Origin: Eleftheria terrae
GTDB lineage: Bacteria; Pseudomonadota; Gammaproteobacteria; Burkholderiales; Burkholderiaceae_C
Reading direction: 5' to 3'
Length of the DNA: 64,000 nt
Assembly: GCF_030419005.1 (NCBI RefSeq)
Contig: NZ_CP106951.1
Span: 1,860,001-1,924,000, forward strand
This document shows positions 1,678 through 56,266 of the stretch, in pieces. Each line of letters starts with the position of its first letter. The stretch's first letter is position 1. A program made the translations under genes and the position numbers. Below the pieces are notes generated by a model. It saw only the letters and a program-made list of their open reading frames with translations, was not told the DNA's origin and made no database searches.

Positions 1678-2937
1678 ATGCCATCGCACAGCTTCTCTCC
1701 TCCGCTCAAGCTCGAACACTGGCCTACGAGCAAGCTCATCGCGTATGCCCGGAATCCGAGAAAAAATGACCACGCGGTCGACCAAATGGCGTCCGTCATC
1801 GCGGAGTTTGGGTTTCGTTTGCCTGTGGTGGCCCGCAGCACTGGCGAACTCGTTGACGGGCACCTTCGCCTAAAGGCCGCGATCAAGCTCGGGCTGGAGC
1901 AGATCCCAGTGGTACTGGCCGATGAGCTGACCGACGCACAGATTCGTGCTTTTCGCTTGCTTGCGAACCGGTCGGCGACCTGGGCGGAGTGGGACGACGA
2001 GCTCCTCCAATTTGAAATGGCCGAGCTGAACGAGGCGGATTTCGACCTGTCGCTCACCGGCTTCGACGCCGATGAGGTGGCGGACATCCTGTCCGAGGAT
2101 GAGGTGGAGCAGGAAGGGCAGACGAACGATGACGCTGTTCCGGAGCAGGAGGCGCGTCCAATCTCCCGCCCGGGTGATGTTTGGCTGATGGGGAAGCACC
2201 GCCTGGTCTGCGGCGATGCAACCAGCGCCGAGGTGTATCAGCTGCTGCTGGGCGATGGCCAGGTTGACATGGTGTTCACGGACCCGCCGTTCAACGTTGC
2301 GTACGGGGATAACGCAATGTTCCGAAAGCGCACTACGGCCCGTCCGATCCTGAACGATGCCCTTGGCGCAGGCTTCCAGCAATTCCTCACCGACGCCCTG
2401 TCGCTGATGGTCCCGCGCTGTCGCGGCGCGATGTACATCGCCATGTCCTCCAGCGAGCTCGACGCGCTGCAGGCCGCCTTCCGAGAGGCAGGCGGTCACT
2501 GGTCCACATTCATCATCTGGGCGAAGAACCGCTTCTCGCTCGGCACCGCGGACTACCAGCGCCAGTTCGAACCGATCCTCTACGGCTGGCCGAGGGGCGC
2601 CAAACGTCACTGGTGCGGGGACCGCGACCAGAGCGACGTCTGGCAGATCGATCGACGAGCAAAGAACGACCTGCACCCCACGATGAAGCCGGTCGAGCTG
2701 GTGGAACGGGCGATCCGCAACTCGAGCAGGCCGGGTGACGTTGTCCTCGACCCATTTGCTGGCTCGGGAACGACCCTGATCGCCGCTGAGAAAACTGGCA
2801 GGGTTGCGCGGGTGATGGAACTGGATGCCAAGTACGCCGACGTGGTTATCCGCCGCTGGCAGGAGTGGACAGAGCAAAGTGCTGTTCGTGAGTCAGATCA
2901 GCAGCCATTTGATGCACTGGCTGCCGTCTCTGTTTGA
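1678..2937 (+). CDS. ParB-nuclease-like domain fused to a DNA (adenine-N6) methyltransferase
   Basis: The protein has 419 aa from the ATG at 1678, where family-like sequence begins; longer upstream extension is repetitive and unlikely. Residues about 10-110 are a ParB/sulfiredoxin-like domain (GFRLPVVARSTGELVDGHLR and a following LADELTDAQIRAF). Residues about 165-400 are a methyltransferase with the catalytic DPPF motif (FTDPPFNVAYGD) before the AdoMet-binding FAGSGTT motif, the beta-class order. This architecture is common in phages and integrative elements. No restriction partner is encoded nearby, so it is probably an orphan methylase protecting or marking phage DNA. Target sequence unknown. 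Confidence 0.88.
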   Translation: MPSHSFSPPLKLEHWPTSKLIAYARNPRKNDHAVDQMASVIAEFGFRLPVVARSTGELVDGHLRLKAAIKLGLEQIPVVLADELTDAQIRAFRLLANRSATWAEWDDELLQFEMAELNEADFDLSLTGFDADEVADILSEDEVEQEGQTNDDAVPEQEARPISRPGDVWLMGKHRLVCGDATSAEVYQLLLGDGQVDMVFTDPPFNVAYGDNAMFRKRTTARPILNDALGAGFQQFLTDALSLMVPRCRGAMYIAMSSSELDALQAAFREAGGHWSTFIIWAKNRFSLGTADYQRQFEPILYGWPRGAKRHWCGDRDQSDVWQIDRRAKNDLHPTMKPVELVERAIRNSSRPGDVVLDPFAGSGTTLIAAEKTGRVARVMELDAKYADVVIRRWQEWTEQSAVRESDQQPFDALAAVSV

Positions 2938-2988
2938 GCGCGGGCGCTTCATGCGGTTGGATCGCAGCGATCGCAATACGAAGAATGA

Positions 2989-3339
2989 ATGATCGTGCCC
3001 GACCTGTCTCAGCAGATCGCCCAACTAACGCGTATCGATCAGAACATCGAGCGGGCACAGGCCCGAATTGCGGAGCTGGAGGACACAGCGAGGACCATTC
3101 CGCAGGGGCACGTCGAGGAGGCGAACAGCAAGACGCTTCTGGCCGCCCTGCGTGCAGCGCGGCTCGTTCTCGAAGAACCGCGCCGATCCATCATCGCGTC
3201 CGGGGCGTTGTGTAGACCGACGGGCGCCGCTACGGCCGGCGGGCACGGATGCCCGGGCGTACAACCGCTGGTGCGCGCTCCGGTACGGCATCGGTACGGG
3301 TCAACGGTTATGGAAAGGACTTGTCATGGCAACCCTTGA
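2989..3339 (+). CDS. Small coiled-coil phage protein, first of a tandem pair
   Basis: This gene encodes 116 aa. Residues 5-68 are helical and charged (RIDQNIERAQARIAELEDTA, then TLLAALRAARLVL). They align with the next gene over the pattern ID/RxIxxAxxxIAELExTAR. From about residue 70 the sequence turns into a low-complexity, Pro/Gly/Arg-rich tail with no match in the neighbour, as if frameshifted after a shared domain of about 68 residues. It overlaps the next start by 14 bases. No function recognised. Confidence 0.55.
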   Translation: MIVPDLSQQIAQLTRIDQNIERAQARIAELEDTARTIPQGHVEEANSKTLLAALRAARLVLEEPRRSIIASGALCRPTGAATAGGHGCPGVQPLVRAPVRHRYGSTVMERTCHGNP

Positions 3340-5229: not shown

Positions 5230-5356
5230 GTTGTTCATCCTTTTGGGTTGGTTGGCGGTCGCTGTGCGACGCCGCTATGAACGCTCTTCTCGGGCCACGC
5301 AGCAACGGAAGAGTTGATGCGAGTTGATTCCGCAGGCCCAGTCCTGCCTGAGCACG

Positions 5357-5878
5357 ATGGGACTTTCAATCCGGGCCTATGCGCGCCACCGCGGCGTCAG
5401 CGACACGGCGGTCCACAAGGCGATCCGCGCGGGCCGCATCACACCGCAGCCGGACGGCACCATCGATGCGGAGAAGGCGGACGCCGAGTGGGCGCAGAAC
5501 ACGGAGGAGCCGCGCGTCGGCACGCGGCAGCAAGCCCCTCGGGTGCAAAGCGACCTGGTGGAGCGCGGCGCTGCGTCAGCGGGTGGTACCTCGCTGCTGC
5601 AGGCCCGCACCGTCAACGAGGTCGTCAAAGCGCAGGCCAACAAGGTCCGGCTGGCCCGCCTCAAGGGCGAGCTGGTGGACCGCTCGCAGGCACTGGCCCA
5701 CGTTTTCAAGCTGGCGCGTGCGGAGCGCGATGCCTGGCTCAACTGGCCCGGCCGGGTCTCGTCCGAGCTGGCGGCCCGGCTCGGCGTGGACCCGCACGAG
5801 ATGCACGTGGCGCTGGAGCGCGCCGTGCGCGAGCAACTGCAAGAGCTGGGCGAGGTCGAGCCACGGCTGGACGGATGA
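5357..5878 (+). CDS. Terminase small subunit (DNA-recognition)
   Basis: The sequence MGLSIRAYARHRGVSDTAVHKAIRAG is a helix-turn-helix that begins many Nu1-type small terminases. In phages this subunit binds the packaging site and presents DNA to the large subunit. The ATG at 5357 fits the domain; a TTG at 5324 behind GGAAGAG would add 11 residues and cannot be excluded. The C-terminal half (ARLKGELVDRSQALAHVFKL) is the helical oligomerisation and large-subunit contact region. Its TGA overlaps the large-subunit start. Confidence 0.85.
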   Translation: MGLSIRAYARHRGVSDTAVHKAIRAGRITPQPDGTIDAEKADAEWAQNTEEPRVGTRQQAPRVQSDLVERGAASAGGTSLLQARTVNEVVKAQANKVRLARLKGELVDRSQALAHVFKLARAERDAWLNWPGRVSSELAARLGVDPHEMHVALERAVREQLQELGEVEPRLDG

Positions 5879-8800
5879 TGGACTTCAACTACGAAGGGGC
5901 GGTCGAGATCGAACGTGCCTGGCGGCAGGGCTTGACGCCGGATCCACTGCTGACGGTCTCCGAATGGGCTGACCAACACCGGGTGCTGTCCAGCAAGGCA
6001 TCCGCGGAGCCCGGACGCTGGCGCACCGCCCGCACGCCCTACCTGCGGGAGATCCTCGACTGCCTCTCGCCGACGTCACCCGTGGAACGCGTGGTGTTCA
6101 TGAAGGGCGCACAGGTCGGTGCCCCGCTGGCGCTCGATACGCCGATTCCCACTCCCGAAGGGTGGAGCACGATGGGTCAGCTGAGCCCCGGCGACTATGT
6201 CCTCGGGGCCGATGGCTGGCCCTGCAAAGTCACGGGCGCCTCGCCAGTGCTCGAAGACCAGCCCTGCTATTGCATCCTCTTCGAGGACGGTCAGACCGTC
6301 GTCTGTGATGCAGCGCATCTCTGGCGCGTGTGGGACTTCACCAATGATGTTCCGCAGGAACGCACGCTGCGAACGGAGCAAATGGTCGGGCGTGTGATGT
6401 TGGGCCGGAGCAAGCGGTTTCGGTTTGCCGTGGACTTGTGCAAGGCGGTGGAGTTGCCCCGCGAACCGTTGCTGATCGATCCCTACGTGCTGGGTGTCTG
6501 GTTGGGCGACGGCAGCAGCACGATGAATCACATCAGCGTGCATGAAGACGATGAGGAGATCGCGCAGCACTTGAACGCCTGCGGCGTCAATGCCATATTC
6601 CGCCTGCCCACCTGGCGCAAGGGGCGCTGCGCCAATGTGATCATCGACCCGACGTACCGGGCCATCGGCGAGGATCAATTGCCCCTGGCTGGCAGCGGTC
6701 GCTCCCGTTTCATGACACATCTGCGGCTGCTGGACTTGCTGGACAACAAGCACATCCCGCAGGCCTACTTGCGCGCTGGGCGCCAGCAGCGCCTGGCCTT
6801 GGTGCAGGGCTTGATGGATACCGACGGCACCATCAGCGCCGACGGTAAGACATGTACCTTCTCCAACGTCGATCGCAACTTGATCGATGGACTCGTCGAG
6901 CTGCTGCGCAGCCTGGGCTACAAACCCAGCGTGTCCAGCCGACCGGGCAGGCTGCATCGAATCCGCGAGCAAGGCTGGACGGCCAGCCAGGAGCATTGGC
7001 GGGTCACCTGGACCGCCTATGCAGAAGAGCCGATGTTTCGGCTCTCGCGCAAGCTTGCCCGCATGCGTTCGATCGACAAGGGGCTGCCCGCCAGGAGCCG
7101 GCGCCGACGTATCGTCGATATCCAGCCGGTGGCCTCGGTACCGGTGCGCTGTATCGCCGTGGACTCGTCCGATCACCTGTTCCTGTGCGGCAAGGGCTGG
7201 ATTCCTACCCACAACACCGAGGCGGGCAGTAATTGGATTGGCTACGTGATCCATCACTCGCCGGGTCCCATGATGGCCGTCTGGCCGACCGTAGAGATGG
7301 CCAAGCGCAACTCCAAGCAGCGCATCGATCCGCTGGTGGAGGAGTCACCGGTGTTGGCCGAGCTGATCGCGCCGGCCCGCAGCCGGGACGCGGGCAACAC
7401 CATCTTGTCCAAGGAGTTCCGCGGCGGCGTGCTGGTGATGACCGGGGCCAACAGCGCGGTGGGCCTGCGTTCGATGCCGGTGCGCTACCTGTTCCTGGAT
7501 GAGGTGGACGGCTATCCGCTGGACGTGGAGGGCGAAGGAGATGCCATCTCGCTGGCCGAGGCCCGCACTCGCACCTTCGCGCGGCGCAAGATCTTCATCG
7601 TCAGCACGCCGACGATTGCCGGAGCCTCGACCATCGAGCGCGAGTACGAAGCGTCGGACCAACGTCGCTACCTCGTGCCGTGCCCGCACTGCGGCCACAG
7701 CCAGTGGCTGCGCTTCGAGCGACTGCGCTGGGAGCGGGAGCGGCCGCACACCGTCGCCTACATCTGCGAGGACTGCGAAGCGCCCATCCCTGAGCACCAC
7801 AAGACGCGGATGCTGGAGCGCGGGCAGTGGCGGGCGACGGTGACGGGTGGCTCGCGGCGGACGGCCGGCTTCCACTTGTCATCGCTGTACAGTCCGATCG
7901 GCTGGCGCTCCTGGCGCGACATTGCTGCCGCCTGGGAGAGCGCCACCGCCAAGGAATCCCGCTCGTCGGCGGCCATCAAGACCTTCAAGAACACGGAGCT
8001 GGGCGAGACGTGGACCGAGGACGGCGAGGCGCCCGACTGGCAGCGCCTGCTAGAGCGGCGCGAGAGCTACCGCCCGGGATCGATCCCCTGGGGCGGCCTG
8101 CTGCTGGTGGCGGGGGCCGACATCCAGAAGGACCGCATCGAGGTGTCGGTCTGGGCCTGGGGCCGGGGCAAGGAATCCTGGTTGATCGAGCACCGCGTGC
8201 TGATGGGCGACACCGGGCGAGCCGATGTGTGGCGCCAGCTCGGCGCGCTGCTGAACGAAACCTGGGCCCACGAGAGTGGGGTGCAGATGCCGCTGGCCAA
8301 GCTGGCCGTGGACACCGGCTTTCAGACGCAGGAGGCCTATGCGTTCGTGCGCGCCTGCCACGACGTCCGGGTGATGGCGGTCAAGGGGGTGCCGACTGGT
8401 GCCGCACTGATCGGGACACCGACCGCGGTGGATGTCACGGCGGCTGGCCGCCGGCTGCGGCGCGGCATCAAGGTCTTTGCGGTGGCAGTGGGCCTCGCCA
8501 AGCAGGAGCTGTACAGCAACCTGCGAAAGGCGCCGAACGTCGATCCGAGCACTGGGGAGATCGCTTATCCGCCCGGCTACGTCCACTTGCCCGCCATGGA
8601 CGCCGAGTACCTGCAGCAGCTGTGCGCCGAGCAACTGGTCACCCGGCGAGACCGCAACGGCTTCCCGGTGCGGGAGTGGCAGAAGATGCGCGAGAGGAAC
8701 GAGGCCCTGGATATCGCGGTCTACGCCCGAGCTGCTGCGGCGGCGTGCGGCTTGGACCGTTTCGAAGAACGCCATTGGCGGGAGCTGGAGCGACCGTTCG

Positions 8801-8958
8801 AGGGCGGGCGGTCCCTGCCACCGCAGTTTTCGCCAAAGCCCGAACCTTCCCAGCTGTTCGCCGCTTCTGCGCCTGACGCCGTTGCGGCCACGGCCTTCGA
8901 CTCCTCAGCGCGCAGAAACACCAGGCGGGTGGTTAAGAGTCGATGGCTCTCGTCCTAG
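5875..8958 (+). CDS. Terminase large subunit (GpA-like packaging ATPase/nuclease) with in-frame intein
   Basis: The precursor has 1027 aa; after removal of the 364-aa intein the mature protein is about 663 aa, close to lambda gpA (641 aa). It pumps DNA into the procapsid and cuts concatemers. N-extein residues 1-83 end at KGAQVGA, and the C-extein resumes at TEAGSNWIGY. Together these rebuild the conserved ATPase motif KGxQVGxTEAG. A Walker-B-like LFLDEVDGYPLD and a zinc-ribbon-like CPHCGH...CEDCE follow, then the C-terminal nuclease half (VAGADIQKDRIEV). The start is the ATG overlapping the small-subunit stop (ATGA at 5875). The frame is open further upstream, but that part overlaps the small subunit and is not coding. 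Confidence 0.95.
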   Translation: MMDFNYEGAVEIERAWRQGLTPDPLLTVSEWADQHRVLSSKASAEPGRWRTARTPYLREILDCLSPTSPVERVVFMKGAQVGAPLALDTPIPTPEGWSTMGQLSPGDYVLGADGWPCKVTGASPVLEDQPCYCILFEDGQTVVCDAAHLWRVWDFTNDVPQERTLRTEQMVGRVMLGRSKRFRFAVDLCKAVELPREPLLIDPYVLGVWLGDGSSTMNHISVHEDDEEIAQHLNACGVNAIFRLPTWRKGRCANVIIDPTYRAIGEDQLPLAGSGRSRFMTHLRLLDLLDNKHIPQAYLRAGRQQRLALVQGLMDTDGTISADGKTCTFSNVDRNLIDGLVELLRSLGYKPSVSSRPGRLHRIREQGWTASQEHWRVTWTAYAEEPMFRLSRKLARMRSIDKGLPARSRRRRIVDIQPVASVPVRCIAVDSSDHLFLCGKGWIPTHNTEAGSNWIGYVIHHSPGPMMAVWPTVEMAKRNSKQRIDPLVEESPVLAELIAPARSRDAGNTILSKEFRGGVLVMTGANSAVGLRSMPVRYLFLDEVDGYPLDVEGEGDAISLAEARTRTFARRKIFIVSTPTIAGASTIEREYEASDQRRYLVPCPHCGHSQWLRFERLRWERERPHTVAYICEDCEAPIPEHHKTRMLERGQWRATVTGGSRRTAGFHLSSLYSPIGWRSWRDIAAAWESATAKESRSSAAIKTFKNTELGETWTEDGEAPDWQRLLERRESYRPGSIPWGGLLLVAGADIQKDRIEVSVWAWGRGKESWLIEHRVLMGDTGRADVWRQLGALLNETWAHESGVQMPLAKLAVDTGFQTQEAYAFVRACHDVRVMAVKGVPTGAALIGTPTAVDVTAAGRRLRRGIKVFAVAVGLAKQELYSNLRKAPNVDPSTGEIAYPPGYVHLPAMDAEYLQQLCAEQLVTRRDRNGFPVREWQKMRERNEALDIAVYARAAAAACGLDRFEERHWRELERPFEGGRSLPPQFSPKPEPSQLFAASAPDAVAATAFDSSARRNTRRVVKSRWLSS
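6124..7215 (+). other. Class 3-type intein with LAGLIDADG homing endonuclease, inside terminase large subunit
   Basis: The intein starts at Pro84 of the precursor (LALDTPIPTPEGW follows) and ends HN before Thr +1. It lacks Cys/Ser/Thr at position 1. It carries the Trp-Cys-Thr triplet described for class 3 inteins: Trp67 in HLW of block B, Cys343 in VRCIAV of block F, and Thr362 in THN of block G. A Thr at +1 also fits that class. Two endonuclease motifs are present, LGVWLGDG at intein residues 123-130 and LMDTDGTIS at 230-238, both with the catalytic Asp, so it may still be a mobile, cutting enzyme. The insertion lies in the most conserved ATPase motif. Confidence 0.92.
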
Positions 8959-54393: not shown

Positions 54394-54437
54394 CCCGAGC
54401 GCTGCAGGACCATCCGGTCTAGATCCTTGATTCTTAA

Positions 54438-55792
54438 CAGGCTGCTGAAATACTGCGCTGAAGCACCTACCTCGACCCGCGAGCTGATGGAGTTTCGGTA
54501 GCTGCCGTCGCGAGGAGTGTCAGAAGGGCCATTTCCAAGCTGGTTCGCCCCTGTGGAGGGCCGAGTTGCGCACCTGCGCTGCTCATCTGGCGCCTTGCAG
54601 ACGGACCTGTCCCAGCGAGCGCATGCGCACCAAGTTGTAGGCCGCCATGTTCAGCACGAACAACTGGTCCACCTTCTTGAGTCCGCGCACCATCACCTGC
54701 CGGATCGAGCCGATGGTCTTGGCCCACCCGAAGGCCTGCTCGATGCGCTTGCGGCATTGCATCGACAACGCGTACCCGTCGGTCTGGGCGATCTCATCGG
54801 GCACCGCCGAGCGACGCCCCGACTTGTTCTGCGCCACATGAGGCTCGACCTTGAGCTGCTGCAATTCGGCGATGAACTGCGCCGCGTCGTAGCCCTTCTC
54901 TGCACCCAGCGTGATCTCTGCCTCAGGGTTGACCTGCCGGGCATCGTTGATCATGGCCCGGGCCGCCGCGCGCTCGGCATAGCCGTTTGCCTGAGTGACC
55001 ACGGCATTGACGATCAGGCCGTGCCGGTTGTCCATCAGTGTGTGGCCCATGAAGCGCATCTCGCTGGCAGTCTTGCCCTTGCGATACAGGCGGCTGTCTG
55101 GATCGGTCTTCGATTCGTGCGTGTCGTTGCTGCGCGGCTGGCCCCGGAAGTCGCTGCCATCGTTGCTGCTGCCACCGCCCGCGTCGTCGTCGTCACCGGG
55201 CTTCTTGGGCACAAAGCTCTAGTGGCTGGCCCACGCCTGGATCAGCGTGCCGTCCACACTGAAGTGTTCCTTGGACAGCCAGTTCTTGCGCTCGGCTTGC
55301 GCCAGCACTTCGTTGAAGAACGCGACCACCGCATCGTGCTCGATCAAGCGCTGTCGGTTCTTGCTGAATACCGTGGGCACCCACACGTTGTCGTCCATCG
55401 ATAGGCCGATGAACCAGCGAAACAGCAAGTTGTATTGCACTTGCTCCATCAGCAGTCGCTCCGAGCGCACCGAGTACAGCACCTGCAGCAACATCGCCCG
55501 TAGCAGCTTCTGCGGGGCGATGCTCGGACGCCCGCCCTTGGCGCCGTCCTCATACATGTCGGCGAACATGTCTTCAAGCTGGATCAACGCGTCGTTGACC
55601 ATCGCGCGTATCGCCCGCAGCGGATGCGTGGCCGGCACGAAGTCGTCCAGCTTCTTGACGCTGAACAGGCTCTCGGTGAAGGTGTCGGGACCGCGCATAG
55701 GTGGCAACAAGATTCAGGTTCAGCTGCTGGGTGACACTGTGCCGCATCTCCGCCAGGATGCGCTGCCGACGGCGAGGTATTTCAGCAGCCTG
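54438..55792 (-). mobile_element. IS5-family insertion sequence (defective)
   Basis: Inverted ends CAGGCTGCTGAAATAC at 54438-54453 and its complement at 55777-55792 enclose 1355 bases with one transposase gene. The right end abuts CTAG, a typical IS5 target, within an IS3 transposase gene. The left flank (TTAA) does not repeat it, so target duplication is lost and flanking DNA has been rearranged since insertion. Confidence 0.85.
54583..55698 (-). pseudogene. IS5-family transposase with in-frame stop
   Basis: MRGPDTFTESLFSVKKLDDF, then LLRAMLLQVLYSVRSERLLM, HFSVDGTLIQAWASH, the in-frame TAG at 55219-55221, and the continuation SFVPKKPGDDDDAGGGS through EITLGAEKGYDAAQFIAELQ to VDQLFVLNMAAYNLVRMR. 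The catalytic DDE parts (DGT, GAEKGYD) are on both sides of the stop. Translation would be cut in two, so the element is probably inactive unless the stop is read through. Confidence 0.88.
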
Positions 55793-56266
55793 CTAGAGGC
55801 TTTGGCCGACCTCGATCGCCAGGCACTCCCGCGTGTACAAGTCGACGAAGGTCAGCATGCGCAGCTTGCGGCCATCGAACAGCGCATCGGCGACGAAGTC
55901 CATGCTCCCGATTTCGTTGATGGCGTGCGCCAGCTGCTTGGGCTGCCGCAACTTCGCCGCCTTGTTGCACCGAGGCCGCTTCAGCCTCAGCGACAGGCCT
56001 TCCTCACGATACAACTGGTACACCCGCTTGAGGTTGTCGGGGTGGCCTTCGGGGCGAAGCATCACGTGCACACGTCGATAGCCGTAGTGCACGCGCGTCC
56101 CGGTGATGTCCTTGATGCGCATCTTCAGCACCGCGTCGTCCTTCTTGACCGGCCGGTACAGGTACGTCGACGCCACCATCTTCTCCATGCGCAACGCGTT
56201 TCGCTGGCTACAGCCGAAACACCGCATCAAGTCGGGCACCAATGTCCGCCGCAGCGAAGGCCTCAA
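55793..56266 (-). pseudogene. IS3-family transposase OrfB, cut by the IS5 insertion
   Basis: KMRIKDITGTRVHYGYRRVH-like text (LKMRIKDITGTRVHYGYRRV), then LYREEGLSLRLKRPRCNKAA and SMDFVADALFDGRKLRMLTF with the first catalytic Asp, ending EVGQSL at the IS5 right end. The remaining catalytic Asp and Glu are lost. The missing rest is not found on the far side of the IS5. Confidence 0.82.

Follow-up and report, generated by a model that had tools for sequence, protein, structure and literature searches.

A class 3 intein with a LAGLIDADG endonuclease domain in the P-loop of a gpA-type prophage terminase of Eleftheria terrae, with a near-identical copy and an empty allele in sibling prophages

The stretch analyzed here, referred to as the window, comprises 64,000 nucleotides of the Eleftheria terrae genome (1,860,001-1,924,000 of contig 2; genome size, 7.03 Mb). 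A module for phage packaging and head assembly begins at position 5324 and comprises genes for the two terminase subunits (small, then large), the portal, the head maturation protease, and the major head protein, followed by tail genes (Table 1). The large subunit belongs to the lambda gpA type, having both the GpA ATPase and nuclease domains and adjoining the small subunit, portal, protease, and major head genes. Its C-extein gave no match as the query in a PDB sequence search. An in-frame insert interrupts the host protein after its residue 83 and is, with high probability, a full-length class 3 intein carrying a LAGLIDADG homing endonuclease in the P-loop of the terminase; from its features we infer splicing, cutting, and homing.

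Table 1. Features of the intein-containing terminase locus, in window positions
Feature	Positions	Strand	Basis
Terminase small subunit gene, upstream neighbor	5324..5878	+	PHROG 57, E 1.2e-34
Terminase large subunit (lambda gpA type), intein-containing precursor	5875..8958	+	Pfam GpA_ATPase E 4.1e-97; GpA_nuclease E 1.7e-98
N-extein, 83 residues, KGAQVGA (P-loop) at its end	5875..6123	+	Directly abuts C-extein in intein-free relatives
Likely exchange tract, intein and flanks	6076..7469	+	Three-prophage site counts
Class 3 intein, 364 residues	6124..7215	+	Translation, relatives, alignment, structure model
His65, block B histidine; aligned to His65 in the MchDnaB1 Cys-His-Thr triad	6316..6318	+	Alignment/structure comparison
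Trp67, block B:12, WCT triplet	6322..6324	+	Alignment/structure comparison
Asp129, acidic residue of first LAGLIDADG motif; aligned to PI-SceI residue 218	6508..6510	+	Alignment/structure comparison
Asp234, acidic residue of second LAGLIDADG motif; aligned to PI-SceI residue 326	6823..6825	+	Alignment/structure comparison
Cys343, block F:4, predicted first nucleophile	7150..7152	+	Alignment
Thr362, block G:5, WCT triplet	7207..7209	+	Alignment
His363-Asn364, splice residues at C-terminus	7210..7215	+	Translation, alignment
Thr+1, acceptor nucleophile and P-loop Thr	7216..7218	+	Translation, empty-site junctions
C-extein, remaining ATPase domain and nuclease domain	7216..8955	+	Pfam domains, terminase search

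Translation of 6124-7215 gives 364 residues without a stop, with Pro first and Thr-His-Asn last. The alignment of the window's DNA with that of an intein-free sibling terminase runs to 6123 and resumes at 7215 (an overlap of 1 base), with no match between. This sets the boundaries at 6123/6124 and 7215/7216 and agrees to the base with the insert delimited by the initial annotation. Because the empty sibling fixes the boundary, residue 1 is Pro and cannot be Cys, Ser, or Thr; a standard nucleophile at position 1 is thus ruled out. Class 3 inteins are defined by a triplet of Trp at B:12, Cys at F:4, and Thr at G:5 (WCT), plus Ser or Thr at +1 (PMC5222942). The insert has W67, C343, T362, and Thr+1, and these residues and Pro1, which had been proposed as a class 3 signature, all lie at the numbers given for them. 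In an alignment of 25 rows (the query entered twice and 23 other sequences), H65, W67, D129, D232, D234, C343, T362, H363, and N364 are invariant without exception. Among closer relatives, Pro1 is present in every one of 20 rows, the window's among them, left from 22 after L020 (frame change) and L040 (stop) were dropped; residue 1 in seven further relatives is Pro in two (L083 and L084), Ala in three, Arg in one, and Cys in one. An AlphaFold model of the intein (pLDDT 88) shows the HINT fold and superposes at 1.1 Å on 6bs8 over 125 residues, and phmmer finds solved class 3 DnaB inteins as the best solved relatives (Mycobacterium chimaera, E 2.8e-28; Mycobacterium smegmatis, E 1e-27). A different splicing route, with another residue as the nucleophile or with cleavage only, has very little chance of being correct. 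It could draw on a distant relative (L081) in which the WCT triplet occurs with Cys1, so that the triplet is not always paired with a missing nucleophile, but it is opposed by Pro1 in all 20 rows, by the sibling-defined boundary that excludes Cys, Ser, and Thr, and by the superposition on solved class 3 inteins (1.1 to 1.6 Å).

The flanks of the insert, KGAQVGA/TEAG (the slash marks the insertion point), form the P-loop. More distant intein-free relatives have AGGQVGK/TECG (L060) or AGAQVGK/TECG (L070) at the same site, which is the usual GK/T split, and Thr occurs at +1 in all 16 empty sites examined in the window's genome and related genomes; 6 of the 25 terminase rows (L062-L065, L071, and L074) were left out of this junction check and of the terminase tree described below. 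Insertion between the P-loop Lys and Thr is a classic site (PMC5050341). The proposal that the intein splits the terminase ATPase motif is therefore borne out by the flanks and the empty sites, and since the P-loop is split, the unspliced terminase is expected to be inactive. In the proposed mechanism, the precursor would fold with the HINT domain holding both extein ends, and Cys343, activated by His65 and Thr362 and positioned by Trp67, would attack the Ala-Pro bond before residue 1. The N-extein would be handed to Thr+1, Asn364 would cyclize, and the exteins would be ligated as KGAQVGATEAG, giving an active packaging motor. The endonuclease would recognize intein-free terminase genes of related phages and cut near the P-loop codons, and repair would copy the intein together with its near flanks. 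Present-day cutting is the least sure step of this proposal; the signature, fold, and boundaries are established here, and we infer that the intein splices and cuts and that homing brought about the transfer. That splicing has become a switch controlling DNA packaging, for example through the redox state of Cys343, beyond a selfish insert, is highly unlikely. A mycobacterial DnaB intein has been called an oxidative stress sensor (PMC6195587), and insertion in the P-loop should block ATP binding before splicing, but the intact intein-free terminase in a sibling prophage and the 16 intein-free sites argue that such control is not required.

The endonuclease part has two LAGLIDADG helices that both terminate in an acidic residue (D129 and D234), as the initial annotation had described, and the Pfam families LAGLIDADG_3 and Hom_end match above the cutoff. 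The residues of PI-SceI to which these two align are ones that we take to be its catalytic acids. Compared with G002, which is of the same genus by genome grouping and whose locus L003 lies wholly within, and is letter-identical to, L015 (contig Aquabacterium sp. A7-Y), the endonuclease part has a ratio of nonsynonymous to synonymous substitution rates (dN/dS) of 0.12. This points to purifying selection and argues that the endonuclease was functional until recently. When the window is compared with the second prophage described below, the ratio for the endonuclease part is 0.225, from 14 differences. Among close relatives of the intein, L020 (4001-5099) is disrupted by a frame change and L040 (4001-5098) by a stop.

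Terminase sequences occur at four places in this genome. Besides the window's gene, a second prophage (C2:3008391) has a terminase whose intein is 97% identical to the window's, and a third (C2:3103233) has an intein-free terminase with 732 residues open and both Pfam domains whole. The fourth (C4:346602, L080) is a decayed, intein-free piece matching C-extein residues 1-267 of 580, with an internal stop. The three related prophages share one contig (window 1-33,000, L046-L049, and L076-L079). Stretches compared with the window are mostly about 90 to 95% identical and 70 to 86% in some, and the two siblings are 84 to 92% identical to each other over longer stretches. The terminase gene of the empty sibling differs from the window's by roughly 6%. 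In the 42 bases around the insertion site, the empty sibling differs from the window at 7, and the second prophage is identical to the window. This share exceeds the gene-wide value and may reflect selection for a changed target in the empty sibling, but the identity of the other two copies there is explained equally by co-conversion. Elsewhere in the window, a 1.36-kb segment (54435-55796), perhaps an insertion sequence, has a 98.8% identical counterpart close to the second prophage.

The inteins of the window and of the second prophage separated far later than the genes in which they lie. Synonymous divergence (dS) between these two prophages falls from 0.332 in the N-extein and 0.242 in the C-extein to 0.035 in the intein, seven- to nine-fold below the surrounding gene; synonymous differences number 9 of 262 in the intein versus about 92 of 435 in the gene (Fisher p 5e-12). 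In a scan of 843 stretches of 1,092 bases, the most identical one begins at 6426 (98.2%, against a mean of 91.8%). Comparison of the three prophages delimits a likely exchange tract, the limits of which, like the 13 pairs discussed below, were picked after the data had been viewed; in its flanks, the window sides with the intein-bearing sibling at 19 sites and with the empty sibling at none, and the siblings agree against the window at 6. Sites grouping the window with the empty sibling prevail in 5355-5554 and 5755-5954 and again from 8116 onward. In a terminase tree of 33 rows, built without partial and apparently duplicate loci and without L083 (whose frame extends only 18 residues past the intein), the window groups with the empty sibling (99/92), and at least five changes of intein state are required. 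The intein tree does not place the window intein, and it pairs L035 with L039 (95/97), unlike the terminase tree. Near-identical inteins in more divergent genes were also found in L027/L028/L029 and L016/L031; pairs of this kind occur among viral contigs grouping with alphaproteobacterial prophages.

The near-identical copy in the second prophage and the empty copy in the third suggest that the intein spread recently, and recent homing is the likely cause of the shared copies, as judged from these comparisons. Of the earlier suggestion that the element may still be mobile, signs of past mobility are supported; the part concerning present mobility coincides with the least sure step. Several observations weigh against homing by an active endonuclease. 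The genome still harbors an intact empty allele, 6 sites within the tract group both siblings against the window, and the 3' end of the tract is not sharp, since 7516-8115 still groups the window with the second prophage by 27 sites to 12. In the N-terminal splicing part, the window and the second prophage show 5 nonsynonymous and 1 synonymous differences, with no constraint seen, although these are only six. Among the 13 pairs, the contrast between similar inteins and less similar genes is strong in 5, weaker in 3, and absent or reversed in 5 (e.g., L017/L021 and L016/L033); 3 of the 5 strong pairs lie within L027-L029, have identical N-exteins, and are not independent. In addition, patches of 98 to 99.7% identity without inteins occur between other prophage pairs. 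Because mosaic exchange is common among these prophages, the low intein divergence could reflect ordinary recombination, and homing is likely but not the sole possible cause.

These patches also speak for an alternative in which the intein splices but its endonuclease is dead or unable to cut now, the near-identical copies having moved by ordinary recombination between related prophages. We regard this as possible but clearly less probable than homing. The intact empty allele on the same contig, with its changed insertion site, and the two broken relatives, L020 and L040, fit it. However, both acidic residues are invariant in the 25-row alignment (in the distant L081, Asn replaces the first), the endonuclease part is under purifying selection relative to G002, the identity peak falls on the intein, the intein state changed repeatedly on the terminase tree, and some pairs from another phage group show the same pattern. 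Homing as the likely cause could be taken further, to an invasion in progress in one cell in which the intein has passed with its near flanks between two resident prophages and the third is an intact empty target; this is unlikely, and if true, homing may occur between resident prophages or upon their induction. One genome thereby holds two donors with near-identical inteins and, at about 93% identity, an intact empty allele, which together constitute a natural experiment in which target choice, co-conversion, and protection of empty sites can be studied with a known target.

The initial annotation had called a terminase intein of this kind uncommon, which is wrong. Intein relatives are present in 750 of 50,697 phage records, with at least 80% of the length in 544; rarity was rejected on this count, and terminase inteins of class 3 that can splice have been published (PMC5050341). 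Among the matches listed in phage records, 21 of 60 are annotated as terminase. Matches occur in 39 of 72,556 plasmid records and in 11 of 100 related genomes, with close matches in only 2, the window's own and G002. Terminase is the commonest intein host in mycobacteriophages, in which all five terminase inteins tested spliced and both of two tested cut the intein-free allele, class 3 being represented among those tested by Bethlehem TerL1-c and Gaia TerL1-e (PMC5050341). The window intein is a well-supported, ordinary class 3 terminase intein of a class that was already known and has many phage examples. The present analysis documents that gpA-type terminases from several groups of proteobacteria carry class 3 inteins at a single fixed site in the P-loop; in the partly accessible literature searched, no description of such inteins in gpA-type hosts was met, and a literature search on inteins in polylysogens or prophages gave no match.

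Several relatives have features of their own. The terminase insert of Acidovorax phage ACF1 (L081, 460-1512) mixes class 1 and class 3 marks, with Cys1, the Trp-Cys-Thr triplet, and Asn for the first LAGLIDADG acid. A viral contig (L043) has two class 3-like inteins (1098-2072 and 2373-3323) about 300 bases apart, with the ends THN/T and THN/S. Two contigs of Ruegeria, each present a second time in the viral collection (L025, L026, L044, and L045 in all), begin inside the intein at residue 344, as if the assembly broke at repeated intein copies. In a plasmid-like record of Endozoicomonas (L083, from 4102), a 60% identical intein lies at the same site and the terminase frame stops 18 residues later, by sequencing error or decay.

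Among known systems, MsmDnaB1 (6bs8) and MchDnaB1 (6rix and 6riy) share the WCT triplet, the same-numbered His65 and Trp67, the THN end, and the HINT fold (1.1 to 1.6 Å) with the window intein, and the MchDnaB1 active site is Cys124-His65-Thr143 plus Trp67 (PMC7664689). They differ in that their solved chains have 139 to 146 residues, without an endonuclease, and in their helicase host; the splicing domains are 43 to 45% identical. The mycobacteriophage class 3 inteins TerL1-c, -d, and -e (e.g., Bethlehem gp10 and Gaia gp2) likewise lie in a terminase ATPase domain, and TerL1-c and -e splice and TerL1-c cuts (PMC5050341), whereas splicing and cutting by the window intein are predicted. The Gaia intein is 37.7% identical over the full length and has the same signature residues. 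The TerL1 hosts are of the Terminase_1 rather than the gpA type, and TerL1-c and -d sit in a helix of unknown function and TerL1-e in Walker B, unlike the window intein, which shares the P-loop with TerL1-a and -b (PMC5050341). The nearest counterparts are the gpA-type terminase inteins of Ramlibacter, alphaproteobacteria, viral contigs, and Endozoicomonas (L016-L021, L027-L042, and L083, some loci being duplicates and L020 and L040 broken). They lie in other hosts but have the same insertion point, A/T in 13 examined and G/T in L083, and where intact, they have Pro1 and the WCT triplet, 363 to 367 residues, and about 60 to 64% identity to the window intein. Ramlibacter exteins are 74 to 86% identical to those of the window and the inteins only 60 to 61%; in the alphaproteobacterial group, the values are about 58 to 71% for exteins (75% over a 76-residue piece of L030) and about 61 to 64% for inteins, with the frame-shifted L020 intein matching in two pieces of 64 and 55%. 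The yeast VMA1 intein, PI-SceI, is a class 1 intein with Cys1 and about 20% identical to the window intein; the model of the latter superposes on it over the whole length.
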